DNA of 64,000 nucleotides from Rhodococcus zopfii NBRC 100606 = JCM 9919 (GTDB taxonomy: Bacteria > Actinomycetota > Actinomycetes > Mycobacteriales > Mycobacteriaceae). Positions 25,274-44,566 of this stretch are shown in pieces. The stretch spans positions 1 through 64,000 of the forward strand of contig NZ_BCXI01000030.1 of assembly GCF_001895025.1 (NCBI RefSeq), in the 5' to 3' direction. Positions within the stretch are counted from its first letter, which is position 1, and each line of letters opens with the position of its first letter. The translations under genes were made by a program, and so were the position numbers. The notes under the pieces were generated by a model. The model saw only the letters and a list, made by a program, of their open reading frames with translations. It ran no database searches and was not told the origin of the DNA.

Positions 25274-25315
25274 CGTGCGTGGTTTCGGTAGCGGGCGCTA
25301 CCGAAACCACGCACG
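25274..25315 (-). terminator. Strong terminator overlapping the end of mftG
   Basis: A perfect 19-bp stem (25274-25292 with 25297-25315) and loop GGGC. The right arm contains the last codons of mftG (Ala-Trp-Phe-Arg) and its TAG stop. It closes the mftE-mftF-mftG transcript before the GAF regulator gene. Confidence 0.85.
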
Positions 25316-26734
25316 GGTGGCGATGCGGTGGGCGAGCATGACGGCGGTGGCGTGGGGACCCCGGCTGGGCACAGCCGGGAACACGGAGGTGTCGACGATG
25401 CTCAGGCCGTCGATGCCGTGGACGCGGCACCGCTCGTCGACGACCGACCCGTCGTCTGCGCCCATCCGGCAGGTACCCGACAGGTGCAGCGACGTCCCGA
25501 GGTGCGTAGTGAGACCGCTCGCGTCGACGATGTCGGGCATCGCGGCGAGAAGGTCCGCCGCGAGGCGCACGCCCTCACGCAGGTCGGCGCGATCCTGCGG
25601 GTGCCCGAGGTAGCGGTAGTCGAGGGTGGGCGCGGACCGGGGATCGGCGGGATCGAGCACGACCCGCCCGCGGCTGCGGGGTCGGGTGAGCACGACGCCG
25701 AGCACCGGGTCGGCGACACCGCTTCCGGGGATCGCCGTCCCGAACGGCACGGTGTACGGCCGCAATTCGAGCGTGTCGGTGTGCAAAACCGTTTCGATCA
25801 GCGGCGACCCCGTCGGCAGATCACGCCGGTAGCGGTATCCGATCGCGACCTCCGGATGGTCGGTGAAGTCCCGGCCGACCCCGGGAAGGTCGTGCAGCAC
25901 AGCGATTCCGAGTCGCTGCAGTTCGTCGGCGGGGCCGATGCCGGAGAGCATCAGCAGTTGCGGTGAGCGCACGGCTCCCGCGCAGACCACGACGCGGTCC
26001 GCTGTGACCCTGCGGATGCCGGCGCCGTCTGCGACCTCCACGCCCACCCCGCGACCGTTCTCCACGACGACACGCAGCACGTCCGTGCCGGTGGCCACGG
26101 CGAGGTTGGTCCGGTGCAGGACCGGCAGCAGGTATGCGAGCGCGGGACCGACGCGCACCCCGTCGCGGATGTTGAGCGGAACACGGCCGACCCCGTCGGG
26201 GCCGGGGGCGTTGAGGTCGTCGACGGTCCCGAATCCCGCCGAGACCGCCGTCTCGTGGAACGCGGCGGACACCGGATGCAGGCGCTCCCACGGGACCCGC
26301 GCGACCGGCACGGGACCGTCGCTGCCGTGCAGGTCGCCGGGAAAGTCGGCGTCGGTTTCGACGGCGCGGAAGTCGGCCAGGACCTCGTCGTACGACCACG
26401 ACGCCGGCCAGCGCGCGAGATCGCCGGGCCGGGCCCGCACGAAATAGGCGCCGTTGACGGCTCCGGAACCGCCGAGAACACACCCCCGCGACACGGTGGT
26501 GACGATCTCCGGCGTGAGCCGCGCCGGGAATGTCGTCGTCCACGAACTGTGCGGCCCGACGGGAACTGTTGCCGCATCGCGGATTTCGGTCGCCATCTCG
26601 AGCACGGACCGGTAGCCGGGACCGGCTTCGACGAGCAGAACAGATCGGTCGGGGTCGCCGCTGAGCCGCGCCGCGACCACGGATCCGCAGCTTCCTCCGC
26701 CGACCACGACGACGTCGGCGTGCGCCGGCAGCAC
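25298..26734 (-). CDS. mftG: Mycofactocin system GMC-family oxidoreductase MftG
   Basis: A 478-residue GMC flavoprotein. It has the N-terminal FAD motif DVVVVGGGSCGSVVAARLSG, the FAD-contact stretch GCVLGGSGAVNGAYFVRARP, VVCAGAVRSPQLLMLSGIGP, and the C-terminal active-site histidines in TSLHLSGTCRMGADDG and GPHATAVMLAHRIA. MftG proteins occur with mycofactocin genes and are reported to act as mycofactocinol dehydrogenases linking the reduced cofactor to respiration. GTG 26734 starts one base after the mftF stop, so the three genes mftE-F-G are one transcription unit. The last codons are part of a terminator stem. Confidence 0.9.
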   Translation of the reverse strand: MLPAHADVVVVGGGSCGSVVAARLSGDPDRSVLLVEAGPGYRSVLEMATEIRDAATVPVGPHSSWTTTFPARLTPEIVTTVSRGCVLGGSGAVNGAYFVRARPGDLARWPASWSYDEVLADFRAVETDADFPGDLHGSDGPVPVARVPWERLHPVSAAFHETAVSAGFGTVDDLNAPGPDGVGRVPLNIRDGVRVGPALAYLLPVLHRTNLAVATGTDVLRVVVENGRGVGVEVADGAGIRRVTADRVVVCAGAVRSPQLLMLSGIGPADELQRLGIAVLHDLPGVGRDFTDHPEVAIGYRYRRDLPTGSPLIETVLHTDTLELRPYTVPFGTAIPGSGVADPVLGVVLTRPRSRGRVVLDPADPRSAPTLDYRYLGHPQDRADLREGVRLAADLLAAMPDIVDASGLTTHLGTSLHLSGTCRMGADDGSVVDERCRVHGIDGLSIVDTSVFPAVPSRGPHATAVMLAHRIATRAWFR

Positions 26735-26735
26735 G

Positions 26736-28145
26736 TCAGTTCCGGATGTCCGGGATCAGCGCGGCCGGGTCGCGGGCGTCGAGCGCGCCCTTCCACAGGC
26801 CGGCACCGTAGGCGATGTCGTCGAGCCGCTTGTAGAGCACATAGCGCACGGGATCGAGCCCGCCGTCCTCCCGATGACCGAACCAGTCCCAGAGTCCTTC
26901 CGCGACAGCGAAAGCCATGACAGCCCGACGCACCCGGGCGGAGAACAGCGACGCGACGAACGTGACCGGCCAGTAGTGCCGGCACAGAGCGGACGCGAGT
27001 TGCCACAGGCCCCCCGCGAAACTCTGCGCGGTGAGTACCGCGGCGATACGGGTGGGCTGGTCCAGTTCGGAGAACATGCGCCGCAGCCGCAGCAGGGTCA
27101 CGGTCAGCGAGACGGCGGAGCCGACCACGCCGATGCGGGTGCAGGTTGCGGCGGCGACGCAGGCGAACAACGTCCACACCGACATCACCATCGGCGCAAC
27201 CGACCCGGGGTGCCGTGCCGCGAGCGGCGCGGCACCGGTCCCATAGAAGGCCTTGCGCGTGAACCACTTCCGGAATCCGATCCGGTGGTCGTGCGCGACC
27301 CGGGCGACCGGCTCGTACCGCAGCCGCCAGCCGGACTGCTGCAACCGCCAGCACAGGTCGACGTCCTCCGCGACGTGCATGGTTTCGTCGAACCCGCCGA
27401 GGTCGTCGAGGACGTCGCGGCGCACGATCATCGCGGCGCTCGGCACGTAGGCGACGGGACTGCCGGCGACCACCGCTGCTTCACGGCGGCCGAGATCCAG
27501 CGACGACCGCGCGTGTTCGTAGCGGGCGAGCGGGGCACTGTCCGGGTCGAGCGCGACGATGCGCGGTGCGACGAGCGCGACCGCCGGGTCGGTGAAGTGT
27601 CCGAGGATCGCTTCGAGCCAGCCGACGCGCGGCACCACGTCGGAATCCAGGAAGGCAACGAACGGTGTTGTAGCCGCGCGCATTCCGGTGTTCCGTGCCG
27701 CCGCCGGTCCCCGCGACGTCTCGTGCCGCAGGACCGTCACCCGCCCGGTCCCGGGTGCGGTGAAGGGCGTCGCGGAGCCGTCGTCGACGACGATCACCTG
27801 GACGGATTCGAGCGCCTGCAGCAGGCGACGCAACCCGGCCGGGTTGTCCTTCGCCGGGACCACGACGGTGACGTCCGAGGTCGAGGGCAGGGCGGTGGGC
27901 CGGGGGTTGCCGACCCCCGAGTCGAGGAGCCGGCGGGCCACGACCGCGGTCTTCGAATCGACGACCCTCAGGTAGCCGTCGTCCAGCATCGCCGCCGCGG
28001 CCGGGGCGAGTTTGAGCATGCGGGTCGGCGACCCGCCGATCAGGACACGTCCGTCGGAGAATGCCCGCACGCGCGGGTCGATCCGGACGCCGAAGCCGTC
28101 GGGCAGACGCGAGGTGGGAGTGCGCGTCGTTGCACCCTGTGTCAC
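26736..28145 (-). CDS. mftF: Mycofactocin glycosyltransferase MftF
   Basis: A 469-residue family 2 glycosyltransferase that adds the glucose chain to the mycofactocin core. Residues about 92-300 show the GT-A fold: [61 protein letters not shown] (the DxD-like metal site) and [16 protein letters not shown] (catalytic region). The N-terminal 90 residues ([21 protein letters not shown]) are typical of MftF, and the C-terminal third has hydrophobic helices consistent with membrane association. GTG 28145 overlaps the mftE stop (GTGA). Confidence 0.93.
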
Positions 28146-28828
28146 CGGAGTCTCCCCTCTGCACCGGGCTGCCAGCGGGCAACCTGTGCAGTCGCACGTT
28201 CGACCAGGTCTGCGAACATGTGGGCGCCCCGTTCCGCGCTGGCGGCCGTGGGATCGCCCAGTACCCCGTTCGCCGACACGGCGACGATACCGCCCTCACG
28301 CAATCGGGGCAGCAGAGTCGCGATGGATTCTGTCGAACCCGCCTCGGCGCGGGTCATGTCGACGGCCCCGGGGGCCAGGTGCAGCAGGAGACTGGTTTCG
28401 GTGTCACCGGCGTGCGCATCGCCGCCGGGTACCGCGCACGGCAGCCACGCCGCGTCCCGGCCCTCGTAGCGCAGCAGGGCAACCGCTTTCGCGAGGGCGT
28501 GCGCGTTGCCTCCGTGACCGTTGACGAAGACGACGCGCGCGGCCCACCGGCACACCGACCGGCCGTACTCGACAAGCAGCGATTCCATGACGTCCGCGCC
28601 GATCGAGACGGTGCCCGCAAACGCCTCGTGTTCGCCGCTGGCCCCGTAGGCCAGCGGCGGCGCGATCACCACGTCCGGCAGCGCCGCGGCGACCGCGGCG
28701 GCGATGCGCGTGTCCGTGTCGAGTGGCAGGTGCGGACCGTGCTGCTCGACGGCGCCGACCGGAACGGCGACGGTTGCGCGCCCCGGCGCGAGGTCGGGCC
28801 AGCGGGCGGTGTCGAGGTTCCGGTTCAC
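28142..28828 (-). CDS. mftE: Mycofactocin precursor peptide peptidase MftE (creatininase family)
   Basis: A 228-residue metal-dependent amidohydrolase of the creatininase family. MftE cuts the MftC-modified precursor to release the C-terminal Val-Tyr-derived core. Metal ligands are visible in [32 protein letters not shown] and [19 protein letters not shown] 28828 is the start ([10 protein letters not shown]). It begins the mftE-F-G operon, eleven bases from the SRPBCC gene that ends at 28839, so that pair of genes may be read into mftE. In many genomes mftE directly follows mftD; here about 11 kb of other genes separate them. Confidence 0.94.
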
Positions 28829-28838
28829 CGACCCGATG

Positions 28839-29264
28839 TTATGCGGTGCCGGTCGACCGTTCGAGCGCGCGTTCGATCCGGGCCAGCGCCGCCTGCCAGT
28901 GGCCGCGTTGCTGCTGCCGTTCGCCGGGGCCGGCGAGGCGTTCCTGGTGGAATCTCAGGACGGTCCCCGCCGGGGTGGCCTGCACCGCCACCTGCACCGT
29001 GGTGTCGTGACTCCACGTCGATGGCCGCCAGGTCAGGCGAACGCGGTCGGACTCGTGGCGGCTGCGCAGTTCCCCGGTGGTGCCGTCGTCGGACTGCCAC
29101 TGCACCCCCTTGTCGTGCGGGATCTCGGAGCCGGCGCCGAGCCAGAGGGAGGGGTCGCCGACGATCAGCGACCAGACCGCGTCGATGGGGTACGGCAGCG
29201 TCTTCGAGACGCCGATCTGCCAGCCGACGTCCCGGGTCTTGCCGACGGTTCCGGTGTCGATCAT
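28839..29264 (-). CDS. SRPBCC / AHSA1-like domain protein
   Basis: A 141-residue protein with the START/AHSA1 helix-grip fold: an opening VSKTLPYPIDAVWSLIVGDPS, beta strands around GELRSRHESDRVRLTWRPSTW and TTVQVAVQATPAGTVLRFHQERL, then a long C-terminal helix. Such domains bind hydrophobic ligands; members act as stress proteins, cyclases or partners of ArsR-type regulators, and no function can be assigned here. ATG 29264 overlaps the stop of the CGNR gene (ATGA) and AGGAG lies nine bases upstream, so the two are coupled. The pair leads directly into mftE. Confidence 0.82.
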   Translation of the reverse strand: MIDTGTVGKTRDVGWQIGVSKTLPYPIDAVWSLIVGDPSLWLGAGSEIPHDKGVQWQSDDGTTGELRSRHESDRVRLTWRPSTWSHDTTVQVAVQATPAGTVLRFHQERLAGPGERQQQRGHWQAALARIERALERSTGTA

Positions 29265-29830
29265 CTGTGCATCTCCTTCCGTCGATGTGCGCGGACCTTG
29301 TCCCGGTTGCCGCACCGGGCCATCGAGCACCACCGGCGGTTGCCGGCGCGCGAGGTGTCGACGAAGACGAGCGGGCAGTCGCCGGCGGCGCAACGCTTGA
29401 TCCGGGGCGCGCGGGGGCCGGCGAGCAGGTCGACGGCGTCGCGGGCGAGGGTCGAGAGTGCCTGATCGCCGGTGACCGGGACGGCCACGCCCGGCGACCG
29501 GAGTTGGGGCGCGATGTCCGGCCGGGCCGCAGCGGCGTCGAGGGCAGCGGCATCCGAAGGGCTCGGCCCGCTTCCGTCGATGCGCCGGTTCAGGCTGCGC
29601 CACAGCACTTCCCGCAGATCCTTTGCCCGCACGAGGTCGCGCGGGCCGAGGTGAACGTGCTCGGCCGGCACCCGCATGCGCGCGGCAATCCAGTCCGCCA
29701 GGTCGTCGGGCGTGCGGAGCGTTTCCCACCGGGCCCGTTCCTCCGCACCGCCGGTGTAGACGAGGTCGACGCACAGCGAGCCGGAGTCGACCTCGAAGTC
29801 GATCCCTTCGGGGGAACGCAGCATCACCAT
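29261..29830 (-). CDS. CGNR zinc-finger protein (ABATE domain), putative regulator
   Basis: A 189-residue protein with an N-terminal ABATE-type domain (about residues 10-130: SLCVDLVYTGG, TPDDLADWIAA, LREVLWRSLN) and a C-terminal CGNR zinc finger. The zinc ligands are in RCAAGDCPLVFVDTS and RWCSMARCGNRDKVRAHR. Such proteins are thought to be transcription factors. The start ATG 29830 has no Shine-Dalgarno sequence, but TAAGAT lies exactly where a -10 element would be for transcription starting at that ATG, pointing to a leaderless mRNA. A 9-bp inverted repeat covers the ATG and -10, suggesting autoregulation. It probably controls itself, the SRPBCC gene and possibly mftE-F-G by read-through. 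Confidence 0.85.
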   Translation of the reverse strand: MVMLRSPEGIDFEVDSGSLCVDLVYTGGAEERARWETLRTPDDLADWIAARMRVPAEHVHLGPRDLVRAKDLREVLWRSLNRRIDGSGPSPSDAAALDAAAARPDIAPQLRSPGVAVPVTGDQALSTLARDAVDLLAGPRAPRIKRCAAGDCPLVFVDTSRAGNRRWCSMARCGNRDKVRAHRRKEMHR

Positions 29831-29854
29831 GTAACTATCTTAACAAGTTACATG
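29828..29854 (-). promoter_or_regulatory. Operator-like inverted repeat and leaderless promoter of the CGNR gene
   Basis: CATGTAACT (29828-29836) faces AGTTACATG (29846-29854) across nine AT-rich bases. Read on the minus strand, TAAGAT lies at -12 to -7 from the ATG and TTGCGC sits 16 bases further upstream. The repeat overlaps both the -10 and the start codon, the layout of a repressor site on a leaderless transcript. Confidence 0.6.
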
Positions 29855-29898
29855 GACTGCGCAACCGGTGCGCGGAACACGGCGCGTAGGCTTCCCCC

Positions 29899-30879
29899 GT
29901 GCTGATCGAACCGCGCAGCCTCGACGACCCGGCTGTCCTCGAACTCCTCGGCGAACTGCAACTCGAATACGTCCATCGGTACGGCGGCCCCGACGAGACC
30001 GAACTGTCCTCGACCGAATTCACCACCCCGCACGGCACCTTCCTGCTGGCATGCCACGAGGGGCTCCCCGTCGGCATCGGCGGCTGGCGCACCCTCGACG
30101 TGTCGTCCTATTCCGGGATCCGTGACGACGACGCCGAGATCAAACGGATGTACGTGCGGGCCACGACGCGTCGCCGCGGTGTCGCCCGGCGCCTCCTCGG
30201 CGCCCTGGAGCGCACCGCCACCGACGCCGGACGCCGCCGGATCGTCCTCGAGACCGGTACCGCGCAACCCGAGGCGATCGCCCTGTACGAGGCGGGCGGA
30301 TACGCCCCGATGACCGAGCGCTACGGCCGATACGCGTACACGGAGTTCGCGCGCTACTACAGCAAGGACCTGCCGCCGCTACGCCTGGCGACCGCCGCCG
30401 ACCTGCCACTCCTCCAGGACATCGAACGAGCCGCGGGCGCACCGTTCGCGGAGCTCGGCATGACCGCCGTCGCCGACGACGAGCCACCCGGCATCGAGGA
30501 ACTGCGACACTATTGCGACGCCGGACAGGCATGGGTCCATCTCGATTCCGGAGGCCGGCCGGACGGCTATCTGCTCGCCGATGTCGTCGACGGGCAGGCC
30601 CACATCGAGCAGGTGTCGGTGCATCCCGACCACGCGCGCGCCGGCATCGGCAGGATGCTCATCGACCACGCCGCGGGCTGGGCCCGGGACCGCGGCCACC
30701 GCGCCTTGACGCTCACCACCTACGTGGACGTGCCGTGGAACGCGCCGTACTACGAGCGCCTCGGCTTCCGGTTCCTCGACGACCCGCACCTCGGTCCCGA
30801 GCTGCGGGAGATCCGCGCGGCCGAGACACACCACGGACTGGACCGGTGGCCGAGGGCCGCGATGCGGCGCGAGCTCTGA
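29899..30879 (+). CDS. Tandem GNAT-domain N-acetyltransferase
   Basis: A 326-residue protein with two GNAT folds. The first (about residues 1-155) has the acetyl-CoA loop RATTRRRGVARRLLGALE and ALYEAGGYAPM. The second (about 160-315) has VHPDHARAGIGRMLIDHAAG and APYYERLGFRFLDD. Both halves keep the Arg/Gly pyrophosphate-binding loop, so both may bind acetyl-CoA. The substrate is unknown; mycothiol synthase also has two GNAT domains, but the sequence here does not look like MshD beyond that architecture. The start is GTG 29899. It is the only plus-strand gene between the two mft blocks, diverges from the CGNR gene and ends one base from the stop of the convergent ABC ATPase gene. Confidence 0.85.
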   Translation: MLIEPRSLDDPAVLELLGELQLEYVHRYGGPDETELSSTEFTTPHGTFLLACHEGLPVGIGGWRTLDVSSYSGIRDDDAEIKRMYVRATTRRRGVARRLLGALERTATDAGRRRIVLETGTAQPEAIALYEAGGYAPMTERYGRYAYTEFARYYSKDLPPLRLATAADLPLLQDIERAAGAPFAELGMTAVADDEPPGIEELRHYCDAGQAWVHLDSGGRPDGYLLADVVDGQAHIEQVSVHPDHARAGIGRMLIDHAAGWARDRGHRALTLTTYVDVPWNAPYYERLGFRFLDDPHLGPELREIRAAETHHGLDRWPRAAMRREL

Positions 30880-30880
30880 A

Positions 30881-31966
<1,086 letters not shown>

Positions 31967-31988
31967 TGATGGTCCTTCGTGTTCGGGG

Positions 31989-32007
31989 CCGGCTCACCGT
32001 GAGCCGG
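31989..32007 (-). terminator. Compact hairpin between binding-protein and ATPase genes
   Basis: CCGGCTCAC (31989-31997) and GTGAGCCGG (31999-32007) form a near-continuous palindrome just after the binding-protein stop. Such intercistronic hairpins often stabilise the upstream binding-protein mRNA or reduce read-through to the ATPase. Confidence 0.55.
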
Positions 32008-32013
32008 CAGATG

Positions 32014-33333
32014 TCACAGATTCGGGGCGATCTGCCGGTCGACGATCTGCTGGATGCGATCCTGGACCCCGCCCAGCGCGACGGCCGGATCGACGTTCTG
32101 CAATGCGATCTGTTCGAGTCCGGTGCCGATGATCTGGTCGCCGCCCGGGACGAACACCCGCGCGTAGTCCTGTGATCGTGTGTGCGCCAGCTGATCCACC
32201 GCGGTGCGGGAATTGGGGTTCTGTTCCAGGAACGCCTTCATCGACGGGTCGTTCACGGCGGACTTGCGGACGGGCATGTAGCCGACGTTCTGCGAGAAGT
32301 AAGCGGTGTTCTCCGGGTTGGTGACGAACTCGATGAACGTCAGGGCGTTCCGCTTGCGCTCGTCGGAGATGTTCGCGGGCACGGCCAGGCCGGCGCCGCC
32401 GGTGGGGCAGCCGGGTTTGCCGTCGATGCTGGGGAGGAAGGCGGTGCCGAACTCGAAAGTCGCGTTGGTCGTGATGCCGGACAGGTCCCCGGTCGAGGCG
32501 ATCGTCGAGCCGATGACGCCGGCGGCGAAGTCGTTCGCGATGTCGTTGGACACCACCGCGTACTTGCCGGTGTGGATCGTGTCGGCGAGGAATCGCGCTG
32601 CGGTGAGGGTCTTCTCGTCGGTGAACCGGAGCGCCCACTCGTCCGAGTAGGCGCCGTCGAAGGTCCACACCGGCCCCTCGAACGTCCATCCCAGGTAGTC
32701 CTTCGCATCACCCCAGCCGTGCGCGTGCTTGCCGGATCCGATCGCCTGCTGCAGGCGCGGCCCCCACTCGCCGAACTCCTGCCAGGTCTGCGGGCCACGG
32801 TCGGGAAGACCGGCCTGCTGCCACAGCGGCTTGTTGTAGTAGAAGAGCGGAGTGGACCGCGCGTACGGGAGCGCCCAGTGGTTGCCTGCGAACTCGTAGT
32901 CCGCGACGAGCGAGTCCACGTAGTCCGACGTGTCGATTCCGACCTGGCTGTAGAGGTCGTCGAGGGGTGTGATCGTCTTGTTCAGTGCGTAATTGAACCA
33001 CCAGACATCCGACAGGACGACCACGTCGGGCAGCTCACCCCCGGACAGCGCCGCGTTGAACTTCTGCGACACCTCCTCGTAGTTCTTGCCCGCACTGACG
33101 AGGTTGACCTGGAGGTCCGGGTGCGCGGACCGGAACCGGCTGATCAGTTCCTTCTCCACGTCCTGCGACTTGCCTGGATGATTCGACCAGAACGTGATGG
33201 TGCCGGTCTCGGACGAGGCCTCGGACGACGACCCGCCGGTGCCGGCGCAGGCAGCGAGCGTCGCCGTGGCGAGGGCGGCACCGCCGAGGCCGAGGAACGA
33301 ACGGCGGGTGTAGGACTGCATGAACGGTTTCAC
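32014..33333 (-). CDS. Tat-exported ABC substrate-binding lipoprotein (UgpB-like)
   Basis: A 439-residue binding protein. The N-terminus has a twin-arginine motif (SYTRRSFLGLGG) followed by the lipobox LAAC, so it is exported folded by Tat and lipid-anchored. The mature part is a family 1 extracellular solute-binding fold: ETGTITFWSNHPG, LPDVVVLSDVWWFNYALNK, YARSTPLFYYNKPLWQQAGL and PNSRTAVDQLAH. Length and the WWFNYALNK region recall UgpB-type glycerol-3-phosphate/glycerophosphocholine binding proteins, but sugar binders share this fold. GTG 33333 is chosen because AGGAG sits six bases upstream; a TTG two codons earlier is the alternative. The ligand is not known. Confidence 0.88.
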   Translation of the reverse strand: MKPFMQSYTRRSFLGLGGAALATATLAACAGTGGSSSEASSETGTITFWSNHPGKSQDVEKELISRFRSAHPDLQVNLVSAGKNYEEVSQKFNAALSGGELPDVVVLSDVWWFNYALNKTITPLDDLYSQVGIDTSDYVDSLVADYEFAGNHWALPYARSTPLFYYNKPLWQQAGLPDRGPQTWQEFGEWGPRLQQAIGSGKHAHGWGDAKDYLGWTFEGPVWTFDGAYSDEWALRFTDEKTLTAARFLADTIHTGKYAVVSNDIANDFAAGVIGSTIASTGDLSGITTNATFEFGTAFLPSIDGKPGCPTGGAGLAVPANISDERKRNALTFIEFVTNPENTAYFSQNVGYMPVRKSAVNDPSMKAFLEQNPNSRTAVDQLAHTRSQDYARVFVPGGDQIIGTGLEQIALQNVDPAVALGGVQDRIQQIVDRQIAPNL

Positions 33334-33433
33334 TGCCAACTCCTGAGGTGATGATGGACGGGCTCCCGATGCCGGGAACGGCAGCGGGTTCGGGTGATGG
33401 TCGTCGGTGGAAGCGACTGCGCGGGAACGGAGA

Positions 33434-35274: not shown

Positions 35275-35292
35275 CCGCGGCAGTGTGCCCGG

Positions 35293-35343
35293 CCGAATCG
35301 AACCGGCGGTGGCCGCAACGTGGCGGCCGTATGTCCGATTCGG
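35293..35343. repeat. Nested inverted repeat between the OYE gene and the ABC operon
   Basis: CCGAATCG (35293-35300) pairs with CGATTCGG (35336-35343). Inside it, GGCCGC (35311-35316) pairs with GCGGCC (35323-35328). TCCGAT/ATCGGA arms at 35334-35339 and 35359-35364 offer an alternative fold. It could act as a terminator or attenuator between the two gene sets. Confidence 0.5.
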
Positions 35344-35364
35344 GGGCTTCCGGTGACGATCGGA

Positions 35365-37323: not shown

Positions 37324-37326
37324 CGA

Positions 37327-38139
37327 TCAGACCTTCGAGTTGCCCTGATCGAGCGCCATCTGGCTGCCCGTGATGGTCTTGGCACGGTCGCTCGCGAGGA
37401 ACAGCACCGCGTCGGACGTGTCGTCGGGATCGGCGATCGGCTTCTCGGTGAGGATGGGCGCGAAGCTGGGGAGCCAGTGCGGGAACTTCTCGAACATCTT
37501 CAGCGCGCCCGGATCGGTGCCCATCGGTGTGTTGACGCCGTACGGGTGGATCGAGTTGACGCGGATACGGTACTCGCCCAGTTCCTTCGCCGCGGTCTGC
37601 GTCATCCCGACGAGCCCGAATTTTGCTGCGGCATAGTTGATCTGACCGGGCATGGCCTTGAGGCCCGCGACCGAGCTGACGAGAATGATCGATCCGCCGT
37701 TGCCTGCCTCGATCATCGCGGGGGCGGCGGCCTTGAGGGTCTTGAAGACGCCGGTCAGGTTGATGTCGATCAGTTCCTCGAACTGCTCGTCCGGCATTTC
37801 CCAGAAGCGGTTCCACGAGCAGATGCCCGCGTTGGCGACCACGACGTCGAGGCGACCGAACTGGGCGACACCCTCGTCGACGGCCGCCTCGAGCGCCGCG
37901 CTGTCGCGCACGTCGGCGATGCGGGCGACGATCTTGCCGCCGGTTTCCTCGACGAGCCGGACGGTCTCGTCGAAGTCGTCCCGGGTGGCCTGGTCGTAGG
38001 AGATGTACTCCGAGACCGGTCCCGCGACGTCGACGCCGATGATCGAAGCGCCTTCCCGCGCGAAACGCAACGCGTGGTTACGGCCTTGACCGCGTGCGAT
38101 ACCCGTGATGAAGACGACCTTGCCGTCGAACTCGCCCAT
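37327..38139 (-). CDS. Mycofactocin-coupled SDR-family oxidoreductase
   Basis: A 270-residue short-chain dehydrogenase. It has the cofactor motif VVFITGIARGQGRNHALRFA, the NANAGIC-type motif VVVANAGICSWN, catalytic Ser in IILVSSVAGLKAMPGQ and the Tyr-Lys pair in NYAAAKFGLVGM. The ARGQGR loop, an insertion after beta-strand 2 (VAGPVSEYISYDQATRDDFDE) and the C-terminal LDQGNSKV are typical of the SDR subfamily that keeps NAD bound and uses mycofactocin as external acceptor. ATG 38139 is preceded by GAAGGGA. It lies between the two FadH/OYE genes in one operon. It probably oxidises a secondary alcohol (carveol dehydrogenase is one known member type); the substrate here is open. Confidence 0.9.
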   Translation of the reverse strand: MGEFDGKVVFITGIARGQGRNHALRFAREGASIIGVDVAGPVSEYISYDQATRDDFDETVRLVEETGGKIVARIADVRDSAALEAAVDEGVAQFGRLDVVVANAGICSWNRFWEMPDEQFEELIDINLTGVFKTLKAAAPAMIEAGNGGSIILVSSVAGLKAMPGQINYAAAKFGLVGMTQTAAKELGEYRIRVNSIHPYGVNTPMGTDPGALKMFEKFPHWLPSFAPILTEKPIADPDDTSDAVLFLASDRAKTITGSQMALDQGNSKV

Positions 38140-38171: not shown

Positions 38172-40070
38172 TTACAGTTCTGCGGCGAGACGATACCCTT
38201 CCAGGATCGCCTCCCGCACCGTCCGTGGTGCGACGCAGTCACCTATTCCATTGCGCCCCACATCGGCGAGTTTGTCATCCGGCCATCCCGGTGAGCAGTC
38301 GACGAGCAGGGCGCCCGGCACGGTGGTCCGCTCCCCTGTGACCGGGTGTTCGAGGTGCACACCGGTCGGCTCGACGGCACGCACCGTGACACCGAGATGC
38401 CGGGTGATGCCGGCCCGGAGCAGCCGCGCGTTCGCGTCGACCAGGTCGCCGGTGGGGGCGAGCCGCGATCCGGCGATGGGATCGCACGTCGCGTAGTGCA
38501 CCCTGTGGCCGAGCGCGGCCAGCCGCTCGGCCACCGCGACCGCAACGGGCCCGCCGACCGGGTCCCACACCAGGACCTCCCGCGGCTGCGCCGGCGGATG
38601 CCCCAGAACCCGGCTCGCGGTGGTGTAGCAGCCGGTACCGGCAGCGACCGGGAAGCCCGGAGGCCGGGGCCGGCTGCCGGTCGCGAGCACGATCGCGGCG
38701 CCGGCGGCGTGGGCGTCGTCGAGGTCGGCGGCGGTGACGGTGGTGCCGGTGCGCAGATCCACCCCACCGTCGCGGCACCGGTCCTCGAGCCAGTCCACGA
38801 GGATCGCGAGGCGGTCGCGTCCGGCGCCGACCGCCGCGGTCCGCAGCATGCCGCCGCACCGGTCGGCACGCTCACGGAGCTGGACGCGGTGGCCGCGCGC
38901 GGCGAGGGCGCGGGCCGCCTCGAGACCGGCGGGGCCCCCGCCGACGACGAGGACGTCGCGGATCCGGCCGGACGGCGGCGCGGAGTTCTCGGACTCGTGC
39001 CCGGCCTCCGGATTGCCGATGCACCCGACGACCGGGTTGTGGAAGTCCCGTACGAGGCACGCCTGGTTGCACAACACGCACGGTCGCGGGGTCCGCCCGT
39101 CGCGGACGGTCGCGACGAGGTCCGGGTCGGCGATCTGCGCACGGGTCATCTCGACGGCATCGCAGACACCGTCGTCGAGCATGCCCTGGGCGTGCTCCGC
39201 GTCGACGATGCTGCCCTGCAGCACAATCGGCACTGCCCCGGCGACGGCGTCACGGATGCGGCGGCAGAGTTCAGCGTTGAATCCGGGCGGGGTGTGCGCG
39301 TCGGGACGATACGTGCCGGGCGTGAACAGGCCGCCGCGCACCACGGTGAGCAGATCCAGGTGCGGGGCGAACTCGGCTGCGTGCCCGGCGGCGAGGTCCG
39401 GAGTGATCCCGGCCCACGGCGCACTCTCGTCGCAGCTGAGCCGCAACGCGAGAATCCTCCCGGCGCCGAGTTCGCCTCGGACGGTGGCAATCACGCGGCG
39501 CAGCAGCAGGGTCCGGTCGGTCCCGTAGCGGTCCGAACGCAGGTTGGTCAGCCCGGACAGGAACTGCCGCAGCAGCGAGGTGGGGCCGGCGTCGAGTTCG
39601 ATGCCGTCGACACCGGCGGCGACCGCGGTCGCGGTGGCTCGGCGGAAGCCGTCGAGCACCGCGGCGATATCGGCCGCGCTCATCTCGGCGGGCATTTCGC
39701 GGGTCGCCGGATCCGGAACCCGAGACGGCGCGTTCAGCGGAGACCGGGTCCAGGCGCTCGAGCCCTGCAGCCCGGTGTGGCCGAGCCCGGCGAGCACGAG
39801 CGTGCCGTACGGGCGGCACGCGGCGACCGTCTCGGCCCAGCCGGCGGCGCAGTCCGCGGCCAGCGGCGCCCGCTCGTAAGGATGGTCGGCGGGGTGCACC
39901 GACGCGACCTCGGTGACGACGATGCCCGCGCCGCCACGGGCGCGCCGCGCGTAGTAGTCGACATGTCGACGCGAGAGCTCTCGTCCCGCAGCAAGATTCG
40001 TTTCGTGTGGACCGAAGATCACCCTCGCCGGGGCGGTGCGTCCGGCGAGGGTGATCGGGACGGTGAGCAC
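38172..40070 (-). CDS. Mycofactocin-associated FadH/OYE-family oxidoreductase 2
   Basis: A 632-residue paralogue of the protein encoded at 35365. The FMN barrel spans about 1-330 (ARVIFGPHETNLAAGRELS, TLVLAGLGHTGLQGSSAW, GVDGIELDAGPTSLLRQFLS). Iron-sulfur cysteines lie in PCVLCNQACLVRDFHNPVVG. The C-terminal nucleotide domains start at RDVLVVGGGPAGLEAARALA. In the barrel the usual His-x-Asn of OYE/FadH is replaced (GLGHTGLQG against QLNHNGAQG in paralogue 1), so the two enzymes probably differ in substrate. GTG 40070 begins 24 bases after the mftD stop. It is the fifth gene of the mftA-B-C-D operon. Confidence 0.88.
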   Translation of the reverse strand: MLTVPITLAGRTAPARVIFGPHETNLAAGRELSRRHVDYYARRARGGAGIVVTEVASVHPADHPYERAPLAADCAAGWAETVAACRPYGTLVLAGLGHTGLQGSSAWTRSPLNAPSRVPDPATREMPAEMSAADIAAVLDGFRRATATAVAAGVDGIELDAGPTSLLRQFLSGLTNLRSDRYGTDRTLLLRRVIATVRGELGAGRILALRLSCDESAPWAGITPDLAAGHAAEFAPHLDLLTVVRGGLFTPGTYRPDAHTPPGFNAELCRRIRDAVAGAVPIVLQGSIVDAEHAQGMLDDGVCDAVEMTRAQIADPDLVATVRDGRTPRPCVLCNQACLVRDFHNPVVGCIGNPEAGHESENSAPPSGRIRDVLVVGGGPAGLEAARALAARGHRVQLRERADRCGGMLRTAAVGAGRDRLAILVDWLEDRCRDGGVDLRTGTTVTAADLDDAHAAGAAIVLATGSRPRPPGFPVAAGTGCYTTASRVLGHPPAQPREVLVWDPVGGPVAVAVAERLAALGHRVHYATCDPIAGSRLAPTGDLVDANARLLRAGITRHLGVTVRAVEPTGVHLEHPVTGERTTVPGALLVDCSPGWPDDKLADVGRNGIGDCVAPRTVREAILEGYRLAAEL

Positions 40071-40094
40071 GGGGCCTCGTGCGTCCGGCCCCGG

Positions 40095-41303
40095 TCAGAT
40101 ACCGAGGTCCCGGCGGAATCCGTCGGGCACGACCACGTCGTCCGGGGTGAGCTCGTGGATCGAGGTCTTGCCAAGACCCAACAGCGCGGAACCGATTCCG
40201 CCGCTGAGGATGTCGAGAACATTCTCGACGCCTGCCTGACCGTTCGCGGCCAGACCCCACAGGTAGGCACGGCCGATGAGCACCGCCCTGGCACCCAACG
40301 CAACGGCCTTGACGACGTCGCTGCCGCGGCGGATACCACCGTCGAGCAGCACCTCGACGTCCTTGCCGACCGCTTCAGCGATCGCCGGCAGCGCCCGGAT
40401 CGGCGCCGGGGTGCCGTCGAGGTTGTTGCCGCCGTGGTTGGACACCGAGATCGCGGTGACACCGGCGTCGACGGCGCGCTTGGCGTCGTCGACACGCATC
40501 ACGCCCTTGAGCATGAACGGAGCATCACCCCACTGCTCCCGCAGCCACGCCACGTCCTCCCAGGTGGGCAGCGGGGTGCCCATCCACTCCCCGTACGCAC
40601 CGAAGAAGGTGGGCGCCGCGCCACCGGGCGGGGTGAGGTTCGGCGTCGTCAGATCCGGCAGACCGAGAGACTTCGCCCACTGCAGCATCCACTTCGGGCG
40701 GAAGATGCCCTCGGGCGCGAACTTGATCATCGCGTCGAGGTTCATCCGCTCGGGGATGGCCGGGCTTCCCCAGTCACGCCCGTTGGAGAACGACCAGTCC
40801 AGGGTCATGATCAAGCCCTTGGCGCCGGCGGCGCGGGCCCGTTCCATGCGCTGGACCAGGACGTCGCGGCTGCCGACCCAGTACATCTGGAAGAAGGTCT
40901 TGTCGTTGACGGCTGCGACCTCTTCGACGGACTTGCTCGCGAACGAGCTCAGACCCATCGCGGTCCCGCGGGCGGCGGCGGCCCGTGCGACGGCGACCTC
41001 ACCGTCGGGGTGCACGGCCTGCACCCCGGTCGGGGAGATCATCACCGGCAGTGACACGTGCTGCCCGAGGATGGTCGTGCTCATCTCCCGCTTGTCCGAC
41101 AGTCCGGCGACGTGCGGGGCGAACCCGAGTTCCCGGAACGCGGCGGTGTTGTCGTCGACCGTCAGGCCGGCTTCGGAGCCGGCGACGAGCGCACCGTAGA
41201 CAGATTTCGGCAGCCGCTTGCGGGCGCGTTCCTGAGCGACGGCGACGGTCTCGAACCAGGGGTCCTGCGCCCACGGGTTCTTCAGCCAGGATGGCTTGGC
41301 CAT
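40095..41303 (-). CDS. mftD: Mycofactocin biosynthesis FMN-dependent deaminase/oxidase MftD
   Basis: A 402-residue FMN enzyme of the lactate/glycolate oxidase (alpha-hydroxy-acid dehydrogenase) family. In mycofactocin biosynthesis MftD oxidatively deaminates the released Val-Tyr-derived core to give premycofactocin with its redox-active dicarbonyl. FMN-site stretches are VMISPTGVQAVHPDGEVAVA, FFQMYWVGSRDVLVQR, LIMTLDWSFSNGRDWG, AISVSNHGGNNLDGTPAP (active-site His) and VLLDGGIRRGSDVVKAVALG. ATG 41303 lies 19 bases beyond the mftC stop. Order and sequence match MftD fully. Confidence 0.95.
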   Translation of the reverse strand: MAKPSWLKNPWAQDPWFETVAVAQERARKRLPKSVYGALVAGSEAGLTVDDNTAAFRELGFAPHVAGLSDKREMSTTILGQHVSLPVMISPTGVQAVHPDGEVAVARAAAARGTAMGLSSFASKSVEEVAAVNDKTFFQMYWVGSRDVLVQRMERARAAGAKGLIMTLDWSFSNGRDWGSPAIPERMNLDAMIKFAPEGIFRPKWMLQWAKSLGLPDLTTPNLTPPGGAAPTFFGAYGEWMGTPLPTWEDVAWLREQWGDAPFMLKGVMRVDDAKRAVDAGVTAISVSNHGGNNLDGTPAPIRALPAIAEAVGKDVEVLLDGGIRRGSDVVKAVALGARAVLIGRAYLWGLAANGQAGVENVLDILSGGIGSALLGLGKTSIHELTPDDVVVPDGFRRDLGI

Positions 41304-41322
41304 GGTCTGTGGTCTCCTCGAA

Positions 41323-42567
41323 TTACAGGCCTGCGAGCGGATTTTCGTCGCAGAACTTGGCGGGGGGCTTGGTGAGCAGGGTCAGCGGAACCGGCGCCTG
41401 CGGGGTGCGGCGCTCGGCGCGCTTGCCGGTGCGTGAGTGGTCGACGCTGGACTGCGGCACGGTGCGATCGCCCTCGAGCGCCGGCTGCCCGTAGCCCTGG
41501 ACGCATTCGGGGTCCGGGCCGTCCATGGGCAGACCGGTGAAGAACTTCGCGGCCATGCAGCCGCCGCGGCACGCGTCGAAGAAGTTGCACGACGCGCACG
41601 CGCCGGCCGATTGCGGTTCGCGCAGCTCACGGAACAGGTCCGAGTTCTTCCAGACCGAGGCGAATCCACCGTCGGTGAGGATGTTGCCGGCATGGAAGTT
41701 GTCGTGGATCGCGAACGGGCAGGCGTAGACGTCGCCGACCGGGTCGATCAGGCACACCACCCGGCCCGCGCCGCACAGGTTCAGCCCCGGCAGGGCACCT
41801 GCACCGCTCTGACCCCCGAATGCGGACAGGTGGAAGAACGAATCGCCGGTGAGCACACCCTCGCCGTGCGCGACGAGCCAGTCGTAGAGCTGCCGCTGCT
41901 GTTCGTGGGTGGGGTGCAGGTCGTCCCACACATCCACCGCACGCCCGGACGGACGCAGCCGCGTGATGCGCAGGGTCGCACCGTATTTGTCGGCGAGTGC
42001 CTTGAATTCGTCGAGCTGGTCGACGTTCTCGCGAGTGACGACGACGGAGATCTTGGCGTCGCGGAACCCGGCCTCGGACAGGTTCTCCAGCGCGCGCACG
42101 GCCATCGCGAACGAGCCCGGTCCGCGGACCGCGTCGTTGACCTCGGCGGTCGCGCCGTCGAGGGAGATCTGCACGTCGACGTAGTCGGACGCGGCCAGAC
42201 GCGCCGCGACCTTCTTGTCGATGCGTACACCGTTGGTGGAGAATTTCACGCCCACCTGGTGCTCGGTGGCGTAGTCGACCAGCTCCCAGAAGTCCGAGCG
42301 CACGGTGGGTTCGCCGCCCCCGATGTTGACGTAGAAGACCTGCATGCGCTGCAGCTCGTCGATGATCGCCTTGCACTGCTCGGTCGACAGTTCGTTCGGG
42401 TCGCGTTTACCGGACGAGGACAGGCAGTGCACGCACGACAGGTTGCAGGCGTAGGTCAGTTCCCAGGTCAGGCAGATCGGGGCGTCGAGGCCCTTTTCGA
42501 ACTGGTCGACGAGACGGCCGACCTTCGGGGGCGCGGTGGTGACGGGCGGTTCGAGCAGAGACGTCAT
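41323..42567 (-). CDS. mftC: Mycofactocin radical SAM maturase MftC
   Basis: A 414-residue radical SAM/SPASM enzyme. The CxxxCxxC cluster site is CNLSCVHC at residues 41-48, with the SAM-binding GGEP motif in YVNIGGGEPTVRSDFW. The SPASM region carries auxiliary iron-sulfur cysteines: GLNLCGAGRVVCLIDPVGDVYACPF and GACASCNFFDACRGGCMAAKFF. MftC oxidatively decarboxylates the C-terminal Tyr of MftA and then cross-links it to the preceding Val. ATG 42567 is chosen; the longer upstream frame overlaps mftB and is not credible. It follows mftB by 26 bases. Confidence 0.96.
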   Translation of the reverse strand: MTSLLEPPVTTAPPKVGRLVDQFEKGLDAPICLTWELTYACNLSCVHCLSSSGKRDPNELSTEQCKAIIDELQRMQVFYVNIGGGEPTVRSDFWELVDYATEHQVGVKFSTNGVRIDKKVAARLAASDYVDVQISLDGATAEVNDAVRGPGSFAMAVRALENLSEAGFRDAKISVVVTRENVDQLDEFKALADKYGATLRITRLRPSGRAVDVWDDLHPTHEQQRQLYDWLVAHGEGVLTGDSFFHLSAFGGQSGAGALPGLNLCGAGRVVCLIDPVGDVYACPFAIHDNFHAGNILTDGGFASVWKNSDLFRELREPQSAGACASCNFFDACRGGCMAAKFFTGLPMDGPDPECVQGYGQPALEGDRTVPQSSVDHSRTGKRAERRTPQAPVPLTLLTKPPAKFCDENPLAGL

Positions 42568-42593
42568 AGCGGGTCCTTGCTGGGGTCGGGGCG

Positions 42594-42893
42594 TCAGGCG
42601 GGGACGATCATGTGGGAGTCGGCCAGCGTGCCGAGGGCACGCACATAGGGCCGCTCGGCGTTCTCGTCGATCCCGTGGGCGCGCAACGCATCCCGCACCG
42701 AGTCGTGCTCGCCCAGCGAGCGGACGACCTCGACGATCACGGTGTTCTTCAGGAACGACAGCTTGCGGGTGCCGAAGTGGTAGAGCAACGCCCCGAACGG
42801 CTCGGGGCGAAGCGCTACCTGCGGGTGGAGCCGCCACGTGGCGCCCGGATCGAACTGTGCAGTTGCCACGGCGGTGGCTCCGGGTGCGGTCAT
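42594..42893 (-). CDS. mftB: Mycofactocin peptide chaperone MftB
   Basis: A 99-residue PqqD-like RiPP recognition element that binds the MftA leader and presents it to MftC. The fold is visible in WRLHPQVALRPEPFGALLYH, then GTRKLSFLKNTVIVEVVRSL and the C-terminal helical VRALGTLADSHMIVPA. ATG 42893 lies two bases after the mftA stop; a GTG at 42911 would overlap the mftA core codons and is less likely. There is no clear ribosome binding site, so translation is probably coupled to mftA. Confidence 0.93.
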   Translation of the reverse strand: MTAPGATAVATAQFDPGATWRLHPQVALRPEPFGALLYHFGTRKLSFLKNTVIVEVVRSLGEHDSVRDALRAHGIDENAERPYVRALGTLADSHMIVPA

Positions 42894-42895
42894 GA

Positions 42896-42991
42896 TCAGT
42901 ACACGCCGCACATACCGTCGATGGAGACCTCTTCCACGAGGGACTCCTCGATGAGCTCGGACTCGATCACCGCGTTGTCACGATCGGACAT
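42896..42991 (-). CDS. mftA: Mycofactocin precursor peptide MftA
   Basis: A 31-residue precursor that starts MSDRDNAVIE, is acidic throughout the leader (EESLVEEVS) and ends with the family-defining IDGMCGVY. MftC modifies the final Val-Tyr and MftE cuts before it; the rest is discarded. ATG 42991 has an excellent ribosome binding site (GAGGAGG, five bases before), consistent with high expression relative to the following genes. A 63-residue frame beginning further upstream is rejected because its added N-terminus lies in the divergent promoter region. It is the first gene of the operon and divergent from mftR. Confidence 0.97.
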   Translation of the reverse strand: MSDRDNAVIESELIEESLVEEVSIDGMCGVY

Positions 42992-43133
42992 GTTTTCCTC
43001 CTCGGTTCGTTCTTCACCACAGTTCGTGCACTCCACAGCGGGAGCCGGAGGCCACAGCCGGACTTGCGCTGTGACTCGGTTCACCACTGTAATGGCATCG
43101 AGTGCAGAATGTCATCCATGGATCGAGGGAAAC
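42992..43133. promoter_or_regulatory. mftA/mftR divergent promoter region
   Basis: These 142 bases separate the two divergent starts. A direct repeat TTCACCAC-W-GT occurs at 43013-43023 and 43080-43090, 67 bases apart, near the start of each gene. No strong inverted repeat was found. MftR should bind here to control both directions. Confidence 0.5.
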
Positions 43134-43763
43134 ATGCGTAGCCGCCGGAAACCGTCCGCTCGGACAGGTCGGCGCCCCTCCACTTCGCGAGAGGGACTCA
43201 GCGCCGTCGGCATCGAACTGTTCCGCGAACGCGGCTTCGACGAGACCAGCGTCGACGAGATCGCCGAGGCCGCCGGGATCGCACGCCGCACGTTCTTCCG
43301 CTACTTCCCGTCCAAGAACGCGGTGCCGTGGGGAGATTTCGACGAGCACCTCGCACACATGCGCGCCCACCTGTCGGAACTCCCCCGCGACATGCCGCTC
43401 GCCGAGGCCCTGAGGTCGGCACTCCTGAACTTCAACACCTTTCCCGAGTCCGAGGCCGAGCGGCACCGCGCCCGTATGGAGCTGATCCTGCGCAACCCGA
43501 CGCTGCAGGCGTATTCGTCGGTGATGTACCAGGGGTGGCGGCAGGTCATCGCCGAGTTCGTCGCGCACCGCACCGGCACCTCGCTCGACGATCACTTCCC
43601 GCGCACCGTCGGCTATCTCATGCTCGCCGTGGCGGTCTCGGCGTACGAGCAGTGGCTCGCCGACGATTCCGCCGAACTGTCCGACCTGCTGGCCTCGGGG
43701 ATGCACACGCTCTACAGTGGGCTCAATTCCCCGGCCATCCCACCGAACGAGGCTGTGTCATGA
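43134..43763 (+). CDS. mftR: Mycofactocin TetR-family regulator MftR
   Basis: A 209-residue TetR protein. The DNA-binding part is REGLSAVGIELFRERGFDET, then VDEIAEAAGIARRTFFRYFP. The C-terminal domain (about 80-200) includes LMLAVAVSAYEQWLADDSAEL. Its position divergent from mftA identifies it as MftR; MftR proteins are reported to repress mft genes and respond to long-chain acyl-CoA. ATG 43134 follows GAGGG at good spacing. Its last codons overlap mftM (ATGA), so both are made together. Confidence 0.92.
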   Translation: MRSRRKPSARTGRRPSTSREGLSAVGIELFRERGFDETSVDEIAEAAGIARRTFFRYFPSKNAVPWGDFDEHLAHMRAHLSELPRDMPLAEALRSALLNFNTFPESEAERHRARMELILRNPTLQAYSSVMYQGWRQVIAEFVAHRTGTSLDDHFPRTVGYLMLAVAVSAYEQWLADDSAELSDLLASGMHTLYSGLNSPAIPPNEAVS

Positions 43764-44566
43764 GCGTGCTCGATTCCCTCGCCCCCTGCACTCCCGGACG
43801 CTGGACGCACGACCACGTCACCGTCGAACGCATCGAATCGGGGCCGGTGACGTTGCGGCGCAACGACGGCCGCCTGCATGTGACGCACTCACTCGGTCCC
43901 GACGAACTCAGCGAACGGCTCGTCGCCGGCGTCACCGCCTCCATCGAGGACGCCGACTTCGGCCAGGACGAGTTCGAGCTGACGATGGTCGGGCTGGTGC
44001 GCTCGACCGTCCCCGACCCGCTCGATGCCTGGGTCACCTACTACCACAACTCCCTTGGTGAACTTCTCGACGGCACAGCGGATTTCGCACCCATCCACGA
44101 CAAGGCCGCCGAACTGGTCCGCGGTCGGGTACTCGATCTCGGGTCCTGCTTCGGGTTCCTGCCGCTGCGGCTGGCCCGCGCCGGTACACCCGTGACCGCC
44201 ACCGACATCCTCCCCGGAACCATGTCCCTGCTCGACGCCGTCGCCCCCCGGCTGGGCCTGTCCGTCGACACCCTCGTCTGCGACGCCGCACACGTGCCGG
44301 TCCCCGATGGCAGCGCCGACACGGTCACCGCGATCCACCTGCTCGAACACGTCGACGACACGATCGGCGCGGCCGTCGTCGCGGAAGCGCTGCGCATCGC
44401 CCGGGCGCGGGTGGTGATCGCGGTGCCGTTCGAGGACGAGGCCACCGCGTGCCACGGCCACGTGCGCACCTTCGACCTCGACGCGCTGCGCCGACTCGGG
44501 GAATCCACGGGCCGGGACTTCGAGGTGTTCGAACATCACGGCGGGTGGTTGGTGCTCGACGCGTGA
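43760..44566 (+). CDS. mftM: Mycofactocin oligosaccharide methyltransferase MftM
   Basis: A 268-residue SAM-dependent methyltransferase. The class I fold is seen in VLDLGSCFGFLPLRLARAG (motif I), ATDILPGTMSLLDAV, the acidic DSADTVTAIHLLEHVDD-like region (here DGSADTVTAIHLLEHVDD) and VVIAVPFEDEATACHGHVRT. MftM methylates the glucose chain that MftF adds to mycofactocin. ATG 43760 overlaps the mftR stop. The transcript ends in a long stem-loop at 44580-44626 shared with the convergent ABC permease gene. Confidence 0.92.
   Translation: MSVLDSLAPCTPGRWTHDHVTVERIESGPVTLRRNDGRLHVTHSLGPDELSERLVAGVTASIEDADFGQDEFELTMVGLVRSTVPDPLDAWVTYYHNSLGELLDGTADFAPIHDKAAELVRGRVLDLGSCFGFLPLRLARAGTPVTATDILPGTMSLLDAVAPRLGLSVDTLVCDAAHVPVPDGSADTVTAIHLLEHVDDTIGAAVVAEALRIARARVVIAVPFEDEATACHGHVRTFDLDALRRLGESTGRDFEVFEHHGGWLVLDA

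Follow-up and report, generated by a model that had tools for sequence, protein, structure and literature searches.

A variable gene slot before mftE divides the mycofactocin locus of Rhodococcus zopfii and holds a putative regulator pair and a Ugp-type importer

Passages of earlier papers treat mftA-F, genes of the mycofactocin (mft) system, as one operon, naming them the ‘mft operon’ (PMC8728441) or the ‘mycofactocin operon mftA-F’ (PMC11778925). The locus studied here raises the question of why these genes stand in two blocks and whether the genes between the blocks belong to the system. It lies in a 64,000-nucleotide stretch of Rhodococcus zopfii NBRC 100606 (contig NZ_BCXI01000030.1, positions 1 to 64,000; this whole stretch is called the window). 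The mycofactocin locus in the window is complete and on the minus strand, with family models exceeding their curated cut-offs for MftA-G, MftM, two FadH/OYE enzymes (OYE1 and OYE2) and an SDR. The uninterrupted mftA-F cluster, a common arrangement and not a strict criterion, was not found, as 6,536 bp of other genes separate the end of OYE2 (35365) from the start of mftE (28828), namely a four-gene Ugp-type ABC importer, a GNAT gene on the plus strand, and two overlapping genes, one for a CGNR/ABATE and one for an SRPBCC protein. A first-pass annotation, made from the sequence alone, had described a split of about 6.5 kb between mftABCD with its OYE and SDR genes and mftE-F-G; the measured distance and the presence of every gene it named bear this out, with the order at the end of the first block corrected to OYE1-SDR-OYE2.

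We consider it likely that the locus comprises two blocks, each with a promoter of its own, and a permissive slot between them, and that mftEFG probably receive a second input from the CGNR/SRPBCC pair, one that regulates itself. The first block (mftABCD with OYE1, SDR, and OYE2) would start at the mftA promoter opposite mftR, and for the second (mftE-F-G) a separate leaderless-type promoter would lie immediately upstream of mftE. As the second block would then have no need of read-through, the interval before mftE would tolerate other genes and appear as a variable slot across the family. In the window, the contents of this slot fall into three layers: the GNAT gene present throughout the genus, the putative CGNR/ABATE regulator with its SRPBCC partner, and a self-contained Ugp-type importer. 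Splits of mft loci are common, and what is new here is the account of a slot before a conserved mftE promoter, of an importer that landed in it, and of a regulator pair resident there.

The region upstream of mftE was compared in two samples. The genus comparison took in the window genome and 17 relatives (18 genomes, stretches of up to 20 kb, translated search), all 18 of which encode MftE. The family pool joined the best 80 of 564 named mftE loci, the 17 genus stretches, and 52 loci picked from a search of 251 family genomes, in 202 of which the MftE cut-off was exceeded; the 52 were our own choice, leaning to genera g6 and g24, from places listed down to E about 1e-95. Two relatives share their mftE stretch with another genome (G002 with Rhodococcus coprophilus, G010 with Rhodococcus sp. 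JCM 9791). In the window, a −10 box, TAACAT (28836..28841, minus strand), stands 7 nt before the GTG start of mftE, and the junction reads GCATAACATCGGGTCGGTG, so that the TAA stop codon of the SRPBCC gene forms the first half of the box. The same overlap of box and stop was present in G004 and G015, while in R. spelaei the stop TAG lies inside TAGCAT and in G001 the SRPBCC gene runs into the mftE start. Across the loci, 125 of 147 have the pattern TANNNT 5–8 nt before a start codon of mftE, compared to 4% in shuffled upstream sequences. The same test gave 0/129 for mftG, 0/119 for mftC, 2/127 for mftD, 0/50 for each of OYE1 and OYE2, and values within 0–2% for mftA and mftB. Among 131 distinct mftE upstream regions, the box is present in 112, all of which lack a Shine-Dalgarno sequence, and 12 of the 19 others have such a sequence; in the window, the box is present and a Shine-Dalgarno sequence was not seen, the sequence signature of a leaderless mRNA. 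Taken together, the box and Shine-Dalgarno data are consistent with a leaderless mftE mRNA, and the box would act as a promoter in R. zopfii as well. In Mycobacterium marinum, Table 1 of a Cappable-seq study lists a primary start for MMAR_1023 (mycofactocin peptidyl-dipeptidase), down to 0.137 in hypoxia (PMC8022548).

The tight coupling of the SRPBCC gene to mftE had been taken in the first-pass annotation, which put 11 bases between them, as favoring read-through from the CGNR promoter into mftE; the gap, measured from the stop codon of SRPBCC to the start of mftE, is 10 bases. Carried further, such a reading would have mftE-F-G transcribed by read-through from a CGNR promoter that replaced their own. 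The 4-bp overlap of the CGNR and SRPBCC genes agrees with it, as do similarly tight SRPBCC-mftE junctions (from overlap to about 16 bp) in G001, G004, G015, G092, and R. spelaei. It is hard to reconcile with a conserved −10 box kept 7 nt before the GTG despite overlapping the SRPBCC stop, or with the lack of a visible Shine-Dalgarno sequence there. The box lies in the junction also in genomes that have no CGNR/SRPBCC pair, which weakens the argument from spacing: tight spacing can be read as the box having been kept, and it is no evidence of promoter loss. We regard replacement of the mftE promoter as unlikely, while additional read-through on top of it may occur.

Several points weigh against a separate mftE promoter of general validity. 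The box is missing before mftE in 22 of the 147 loci, and seven of the 131 distinct upstream regions have neither box nor Shine-Dalgarno sequence (the start codon is uncertain in these). It is also common before mftF (52/140, mostly in other Rhodococcus groups) and occurs before the SDR gene (10/71), mftM (6/52), and ABC ATPase matches (9/19). Several start codons were tried per gene, with the shuffles using the same ones, and the absence of a Shine-Dalgarno sequence is not independent evidence since the box fills most of the stretch in which one would lie. A scan of 28000–36000 for consensus sigma-70 promoters returned none. The mft genomes sampled are not independent, with genera g6 and g24 heavily represented. 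MftR overproduction in M. smegmatis speaks in favor of separately controlled blocks, with a reservation: mftA, mftC, and mftD were cut about 15-, 20-, and 80-fold and mftE and mftF less than 10-fold, but mftB also fell by less than 10-fold, so that the split between the blocks is not clean (PMC8728441). As an observation on the second block itself, a leaderless-type −10 box stands before mftF in L006, L008-L014, L130-L169, and other loci, indicating that this block can have two starts.

The variability of the interval before mftE was measured on the family pool. Its 149 loci gave 142 distinct ones after seven repeats of the same mftE stretch were dropped, and 115 of these served for the mftD-mftE gap, 27 being left out (21 with no same-strand mftD in the stretch and six with mftD after mftE). 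Intervals were counted for same-strand gene pairs, and the gap was taken from the last of mftD, OYE1, SDR, and OYE2 to mftE. This gap exceeded 600 bp in 57 of the 115 distinct loci with a same-strand upstream mftD, reaching 10.4 kb. For five other intervals, with 503 cases in all, two cases were longer than 600 bp or had the genes out of order (A-B 0/111, B-C 0/117, C-D 1/111, D-OYE1 0/44, F-G 1/120), and this held for 12 of 134 mftE-mftF intervals; the OYE1-OYE2 interval (38/49 above 600 bp) was excluded because the SDR gene usually sits inside it. In genus g23 (L129, L170-L173), mftE precedes mftD and the other mft genes were undetected within the stretch with the queries used, so that the locus appears rearranged or reduced.

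The contents of the slot, called with our own gene caller, which misses some genes, vary by clade. Of 20 representatives scanned, 17 gave a Pfam match at the chosen cut-off and three none, and the matches comprised a cytosine/purine permease, an Asp/Glu racemase, an FCD-domain protein, a CoA-transferase III, DUF222, RelA/SpoT, ATP-grasp, peptidase S15, amine oxidase, MCRA, an HD/GerE protein, a pyridoxamine-oxidase-like protein, an IS605-type OrfB, and an rve-type integrase. Within the genus, OYE2 and the GNAT gene are adjacent in 12 of 18 genomes. G011 and G012 carry between these two genes an Opp-type ATPase, SBP_bac_5 and TauD proteins, and two permease-length proteins, the stretch of G010 ends in apparently the same Opp-type set, G007 has another 6 kb in this place, and in G001 OYE2 lies beyond the stretch. 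The gene-order comparison that the first-pass annotation had proposed thus gave three different distributions for the parts of the window slot, the importer occurring there only in the window genome (1/18), the CGNR/SRPBCC pair in four of 18, and the GNAT gene in all 18; a single 6.5-kb island was rejected on this ground. Family scans found no integrase or transposase among the window slot genes, and Rfam and tRNA scans of the window gave no match and no tRNA. A search of 28000–36000 gave four terminator-like sites, compared to 2.7 in shuffles.

Diversity of this kind, including an Opp-type ABC set with TauD, together with the IS605-type and rve-type transposase genes and an importer found here in only one of 18 genomes, is what would be expected if all intervening genes were chance cargo with no bearing on mycofactocin, in a spot that is permissive merely because it lies between two transcription units. 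Random cargo would not be expected to include a GNAT gene present in 18 of 18 genus genomes, nor CGNR proteins whose close relatives all stand beside mftE (8/8) and form one group. We therefore give this explanation only a modest chance of being correct, and keep the reading of two promoted blocks in which some slot genes would have become residents. The annotation had left it open whether the intervening genes were inserted or were functional additions, and the answer differs by part: the importer looks like a lineage-specific insertion, the CGNR/SRPBCC pair is probably a real addition, and the GNAT gene a genus-wide fixture.

The CGNR gene (29261..29830, minus strand) encodes a putative regulator with an ABATE domain (PF07336, residues 17-139) followed by a CGNR zinc finger (PF11706, 143-185), and the overlapping downstream gene (28839..29264, minus strand) an SRPBCC/AHSA1-like protein (PF08327, 25.1 bits against 22.1). 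A search of solved structures gave no match for the SRPBCC protein and for the CGNR protein only 3h0n, Jann_2411, an ABATE/CGNR putative regulator with the same two domains. Such proteins have been proposed as stress-induced regulators, and the word operator does not occur in that paper (PMC2954205). The window gene differs from the known ones in its linkage to a biosynthetic block and an SRPBCC gene and in the candidate operator proposed for it below. Full-text searches of open-licence papers, judged mostly from their listings, showed nothing on the slot or on the CGNR/SRPBCC pair, and none of the papers found for CGNR, SRPBCC, or ABATE mentions mycofactocin.

The pair precedes mftE in the window genome, G001, G004, and G015 within the genus. 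In a wider search of 401 family genomes, a CGNR match at E 1e-25 or better was present in 34, and a protein of at least 50% identity in eight (the window genome, G015, G004, G001, G079, G063, G092, and G076). In all eight, the gene lies directly upstream of mftE with an SRPBCC gene between, while none of 22 weaker matches examined (five further weak ones were left out) has mftE within about 1.5 kb. The CGNR protein of R. spelaei is the same as that of G063. In a tree of 31 CGNR rows, the mft-linked proteins cluster together with a support of 84/87 and in 88% of bootstrap trees, and none of 500 label shuffles came out as low. A single recruitment followed by losses is the simplest reading; an ancestor would have acquired the pair, probably once, and some of its descendants would have retained it. 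Since this CGNR lineage was found only beside mftE in these searches, the pair is probably a real addition to the locus. Five of the weaker loci, which are remote from mft, likewise have an SRPBCC gene next to the CGNR gene, so that the pair either predates its link to mft or formed more than once. Two loci show variants of the pair. In G076 (L153), a mid-gene loss has shortened the SRPBCC gene that separates CGNR from mftE, while the CGNR gene and its palindrome look intact, and in G181 (L141) an SRPBCC gene (55% identical) stands before mftE with no CGNR gene.

A palindrome, GTAAC-N11-GTTAC (29831..29851, minus strand), surrounds the −10 box of the CGNR gene (TAAGAT, 29837-29842) and touches its start codon, making it a putative operator. 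The exact 21-bp pattern, which was derived from these same loci, has one match in the window genome; each of the four genus genomes that have an mft-linked CGNR gene contains it a single time, the other 14 do not contain it, and reversed-pattern controls gave no match. When full and asymmetric forms are allowed, 23 of 30 CGNR genes have a palindrome in contact with an in-frame start, and 26 have one anywhere upstream. A second CGNR group (L198-L201, L203-L208) has an asymmetric palindrome of the GTAACCAGTTAAACTGGTGTC type touching the start codon, possibly a second type of operator.

One palindrome per genome suggests that the CGNR protein is a self-regulator, the genes downstream being SRPBCC and, by read-through, mftE-F-G; here we infer the binding, its sign, and the ligand. 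The CGNR protein would bind the palindrome over its own −10 box and repress CGNR-SRPBCC, a small molecule binding to the SRPBCC protein or the ABATE domain might bring about its release, and transcription passing through SRPBCC into mftE-F-G would then add to that from the mftE promoter. The stronger proposal, that CGNR/ABATE and SRPBCC form a second ligand-sensing switch, separate from MftR, for the finishing half of the pathway (MftE, MftF, and MftG: peptide release, glycosylation, and electron hand-off) in a clade spanning three related genera, we offer as tentative and somewhat less probable than its opposite. Some observations weigh against a role of the pair in mycofactocin control. No palindrome lies at the start of seven of the 30 CGNR genes, and since it also precedes CGNR genes far from mft, it marks CGNR self-control and not mycofactocin as such. 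The pair is dispensable, as only four of 18 genus genomes carry it and G076 has a shortened SRPBCC gene. Support for the mft-linked group is only moderate, and the search of the 401 genomes scored no more than eight candidates in each.

The importer genes, all on the minus strand, encode a UgpA-like permease (34357..35274, PF00528), a UgpE-like permease (33434..34360, PF00528), a UgpB-like solute-binding protein (32014..33321), and a UgpC-like ATPase (30881..31966; NF008653, 433 bits against 432); for the first three, the best NCBIfam models were UgpA, UgpE, and UgpB, each below its cut-off. All four subunits expected of a Ugp importer (ugpAEBC) are thus present, with a binding protein closely similar to 4mfi (named UspB there; E 2e-175) and 6r1b (UgpB), its best solved relatives, which we take to be proteins of the tubercle bacillus. 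Permease A, permease E, binding protein, and ATPase follow each other in the order known from M. tuberculosis. By homology, the importer would take up glycerophosphodiesters or glycerol 3-phosphate.

Orthologues of 72–77% identity occur elsewhere in seven of the 17 genus relatives, in G005 at 0.7 Mb from mftE and in the other six on a different contig, and are present with E 1e-150 or better in 78 of the 251 family genomes, the window’s included; the importer was seen at the slot in none of 126 slot regions compared and, within the genus, in the window genome only. In those seven relatives, it follows an L,D-transpeptidase-like gene, preceded directly in five by an FprA-like gene (both names presumed from the sequences). 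The window copy differs from them in lying in the mft slot instead of at this site, which holds no importer in G004 and G015, the two nearest relatives, and seems to hold none in the window genome (G000) either, where the ends of contigs C45 and C31 add up to about 630 bp, compared to about 607 in G004. The 90 bp between OYE2 and the importer (35275..35364, minus strand) form a hairpin (z −1.95), and the part nearest the permease gene resembles the importer upstream region at the other site of the relatives (alignment with L114-L120). These observations point to an importer that probably entered the slot in the window lineage, by move or by transfer, as a lineage-specific insertion, and that probably arrived with its own promoter.

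As the genome is a draft of 146 contigs, and the contig with the L,D-transpeptidase-like gene ends about 100 bp after that gene, just where the importer of the relatives starts, the placement at the mft locus could be an assembly error. We judge this very improbable, since the 710-aa gene that comes next in G004 and G015 starts here 536 bp inside contig C31, so that the two contig ends (joined by inference from relatives) fill the site with no importer, and since the nearest relatives have no importer altogether. Nor is it probable, in our estimate, that the importer is a functional addition feeding mycofactocin-dependent alcohol metabolism, for example with glycerophosphodiester-derived alcohols. 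Its co-orientation 90 bp after OYE2 and the EutB/EutC and ExaC genes within 6 kb of mftG would suit such a role, but the importer is here in only one of 18 genomes, lies away from mftE in the seven relatives, and has a region upstream of its first permease gene that looks carried over. The first-pass annotation had reasoned that genes confined to this strain and flanked by recombination scars would be a chance insertion; the importer at the slot is confined to the window genome, and no scar or repeat was seen by eye at its junctions, where no repeat search was run. Visible scars were rejected accordingly. The stop codons of the ATPase and GNAT genes are 1 bp apart.

The two-domain GNAT acetyltransferase gene (29899..30879, plus strand; PF00583 in two stretches) is convergent with the importer and divergent from the CGNR gene. 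It has its own leaderless-type −10 box, TAGGCT (29887-29892, plus strand), read from the sequence, and such a box was found in 17 of 17 loci. The gene lies upstream of mftE on the opposite strand throughout the genus, directly before mftE or CGNR in 13 of 18 genomes and set apart by over 1 kb of other sequence in G001, G002, G007, G011, and G013.

The remaining genes of the locus were assigned as follows. In the first block, on the minus strand, are mftA (42896..42991; TIGR03969, 49.7 bits against a cut-off of 25), whose precursor peptide ends in IDGMCGVY with the characteristic CGVY, the chaperone gene mftB (42594..42893; TIGR03967, 111.8 against 33; the PqqD Pfam model gave no match), the radical SAM maturase gene mftC (41323..42567; TIGR03962, 658 against 265, scanned as the longer frame 41323-42837), the pre-mycofactocin synthase gene mftD (40095..41303; TIGR03966, 710 against 470.85), OYE1 (38172..40070; TIGR03996, 885 against 627.9), the mycofactocin-coupled SDR gene (37327..38139; TIGR03971, 354 against 300), and, as its last gene, OYE2 (35365..37323; TIGR03997, 883 against 793.15). 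The second block, on the same strand, starts with the peptidase gene mftE (28142..28828; TIGR03964, 334 against 172) and continues with the glycosyltransferase gene mftF (26736..28145; TIGR03965, 599 against 280) and the dehydrogenase gene mftG (25298..26734; TIGR03970, 605 against 387). Divergent from mftA on the plus strand are an open frame at about 43134-43763, which from its position we take to be mftR, a TetR-type regulator gene, and the oligosaccharide methyltransferase gene mftM (43760..44566; NF041255, 374 against 200, scanned as the longer frame 43328-44566), which forms the right end of the interval 25298..44566. The mycobacterial cluster (mftR, mftABCDEF, mftG) has the same genes in the same order and a −10 box before mftE, with a mftD-mftE spacing of about 130–320 bp in the Mycobacterium-type loci compared; the window differs in having OYE1-SDR-OYE2 after mftD, 6.5 kb of other genes before mftE, and mftM beside mftR. 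Rhodococcus koreensis and Prescottella subtropica (L006, L007) share the order A-B-C-D-OYE1-SDR-OYE2-E-F-G and the divergent mftR-mftM, but have no intervening genes, OYE2 and mftE being 69 and 115 bp apart. For R. jostii RHA1, the gi numbers in Table 4 of Haft 2011 suggest that OYE2 lies directly before mftE (PMC3023750).

An inverted repeat read by eye (25274-25315, 19-bp arms, 4-base loop) spans the mftG stop and is likely the second block's terminator. Directly after mftG (21565-25213) come genes for a 430-aa protein with no Pfam match, which by eye looks like a GAF-type regulator, for the acetaldehyde dehydrogenase ExaC (22296-24056 as scanned), and for a DUF779 protein; the 430-aa protein and ExaC follow mftG in 10 of 10 relatives compared, with ExaC 93–98% identical, more than its neighbors. 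The ethanolamine ammonia-lyase genes EutB and EutC lie at 19258-21455. EutB is also present in G001, G004, and G011 and absent from the 14-kb stretches of G003, G005, G008, G009, and G013, those of G015 and G017 being too short for this comparison.

The slot offers an explanation for why mft loci differ among genomes, and accessory genes may be sought in it. Its cargo is probably for the most part unrelated to mycofactocin, and a gene recurring there as one lineage, as CGNR/SRPBCC does, is a candidate part of the system. The palindrome provides a testable operator for ABATE/CGNR proteins. If the reading of a second switch is true, control would act on the pathway twice, once where the precursor is made and once at the finishing stage. 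Should mftE have a conserved leaderless promoter of its own, the making and the finishing of the cofactor could be adjusted separately, which would bear on the design of knock-outs, complementation, and heterologous expression.

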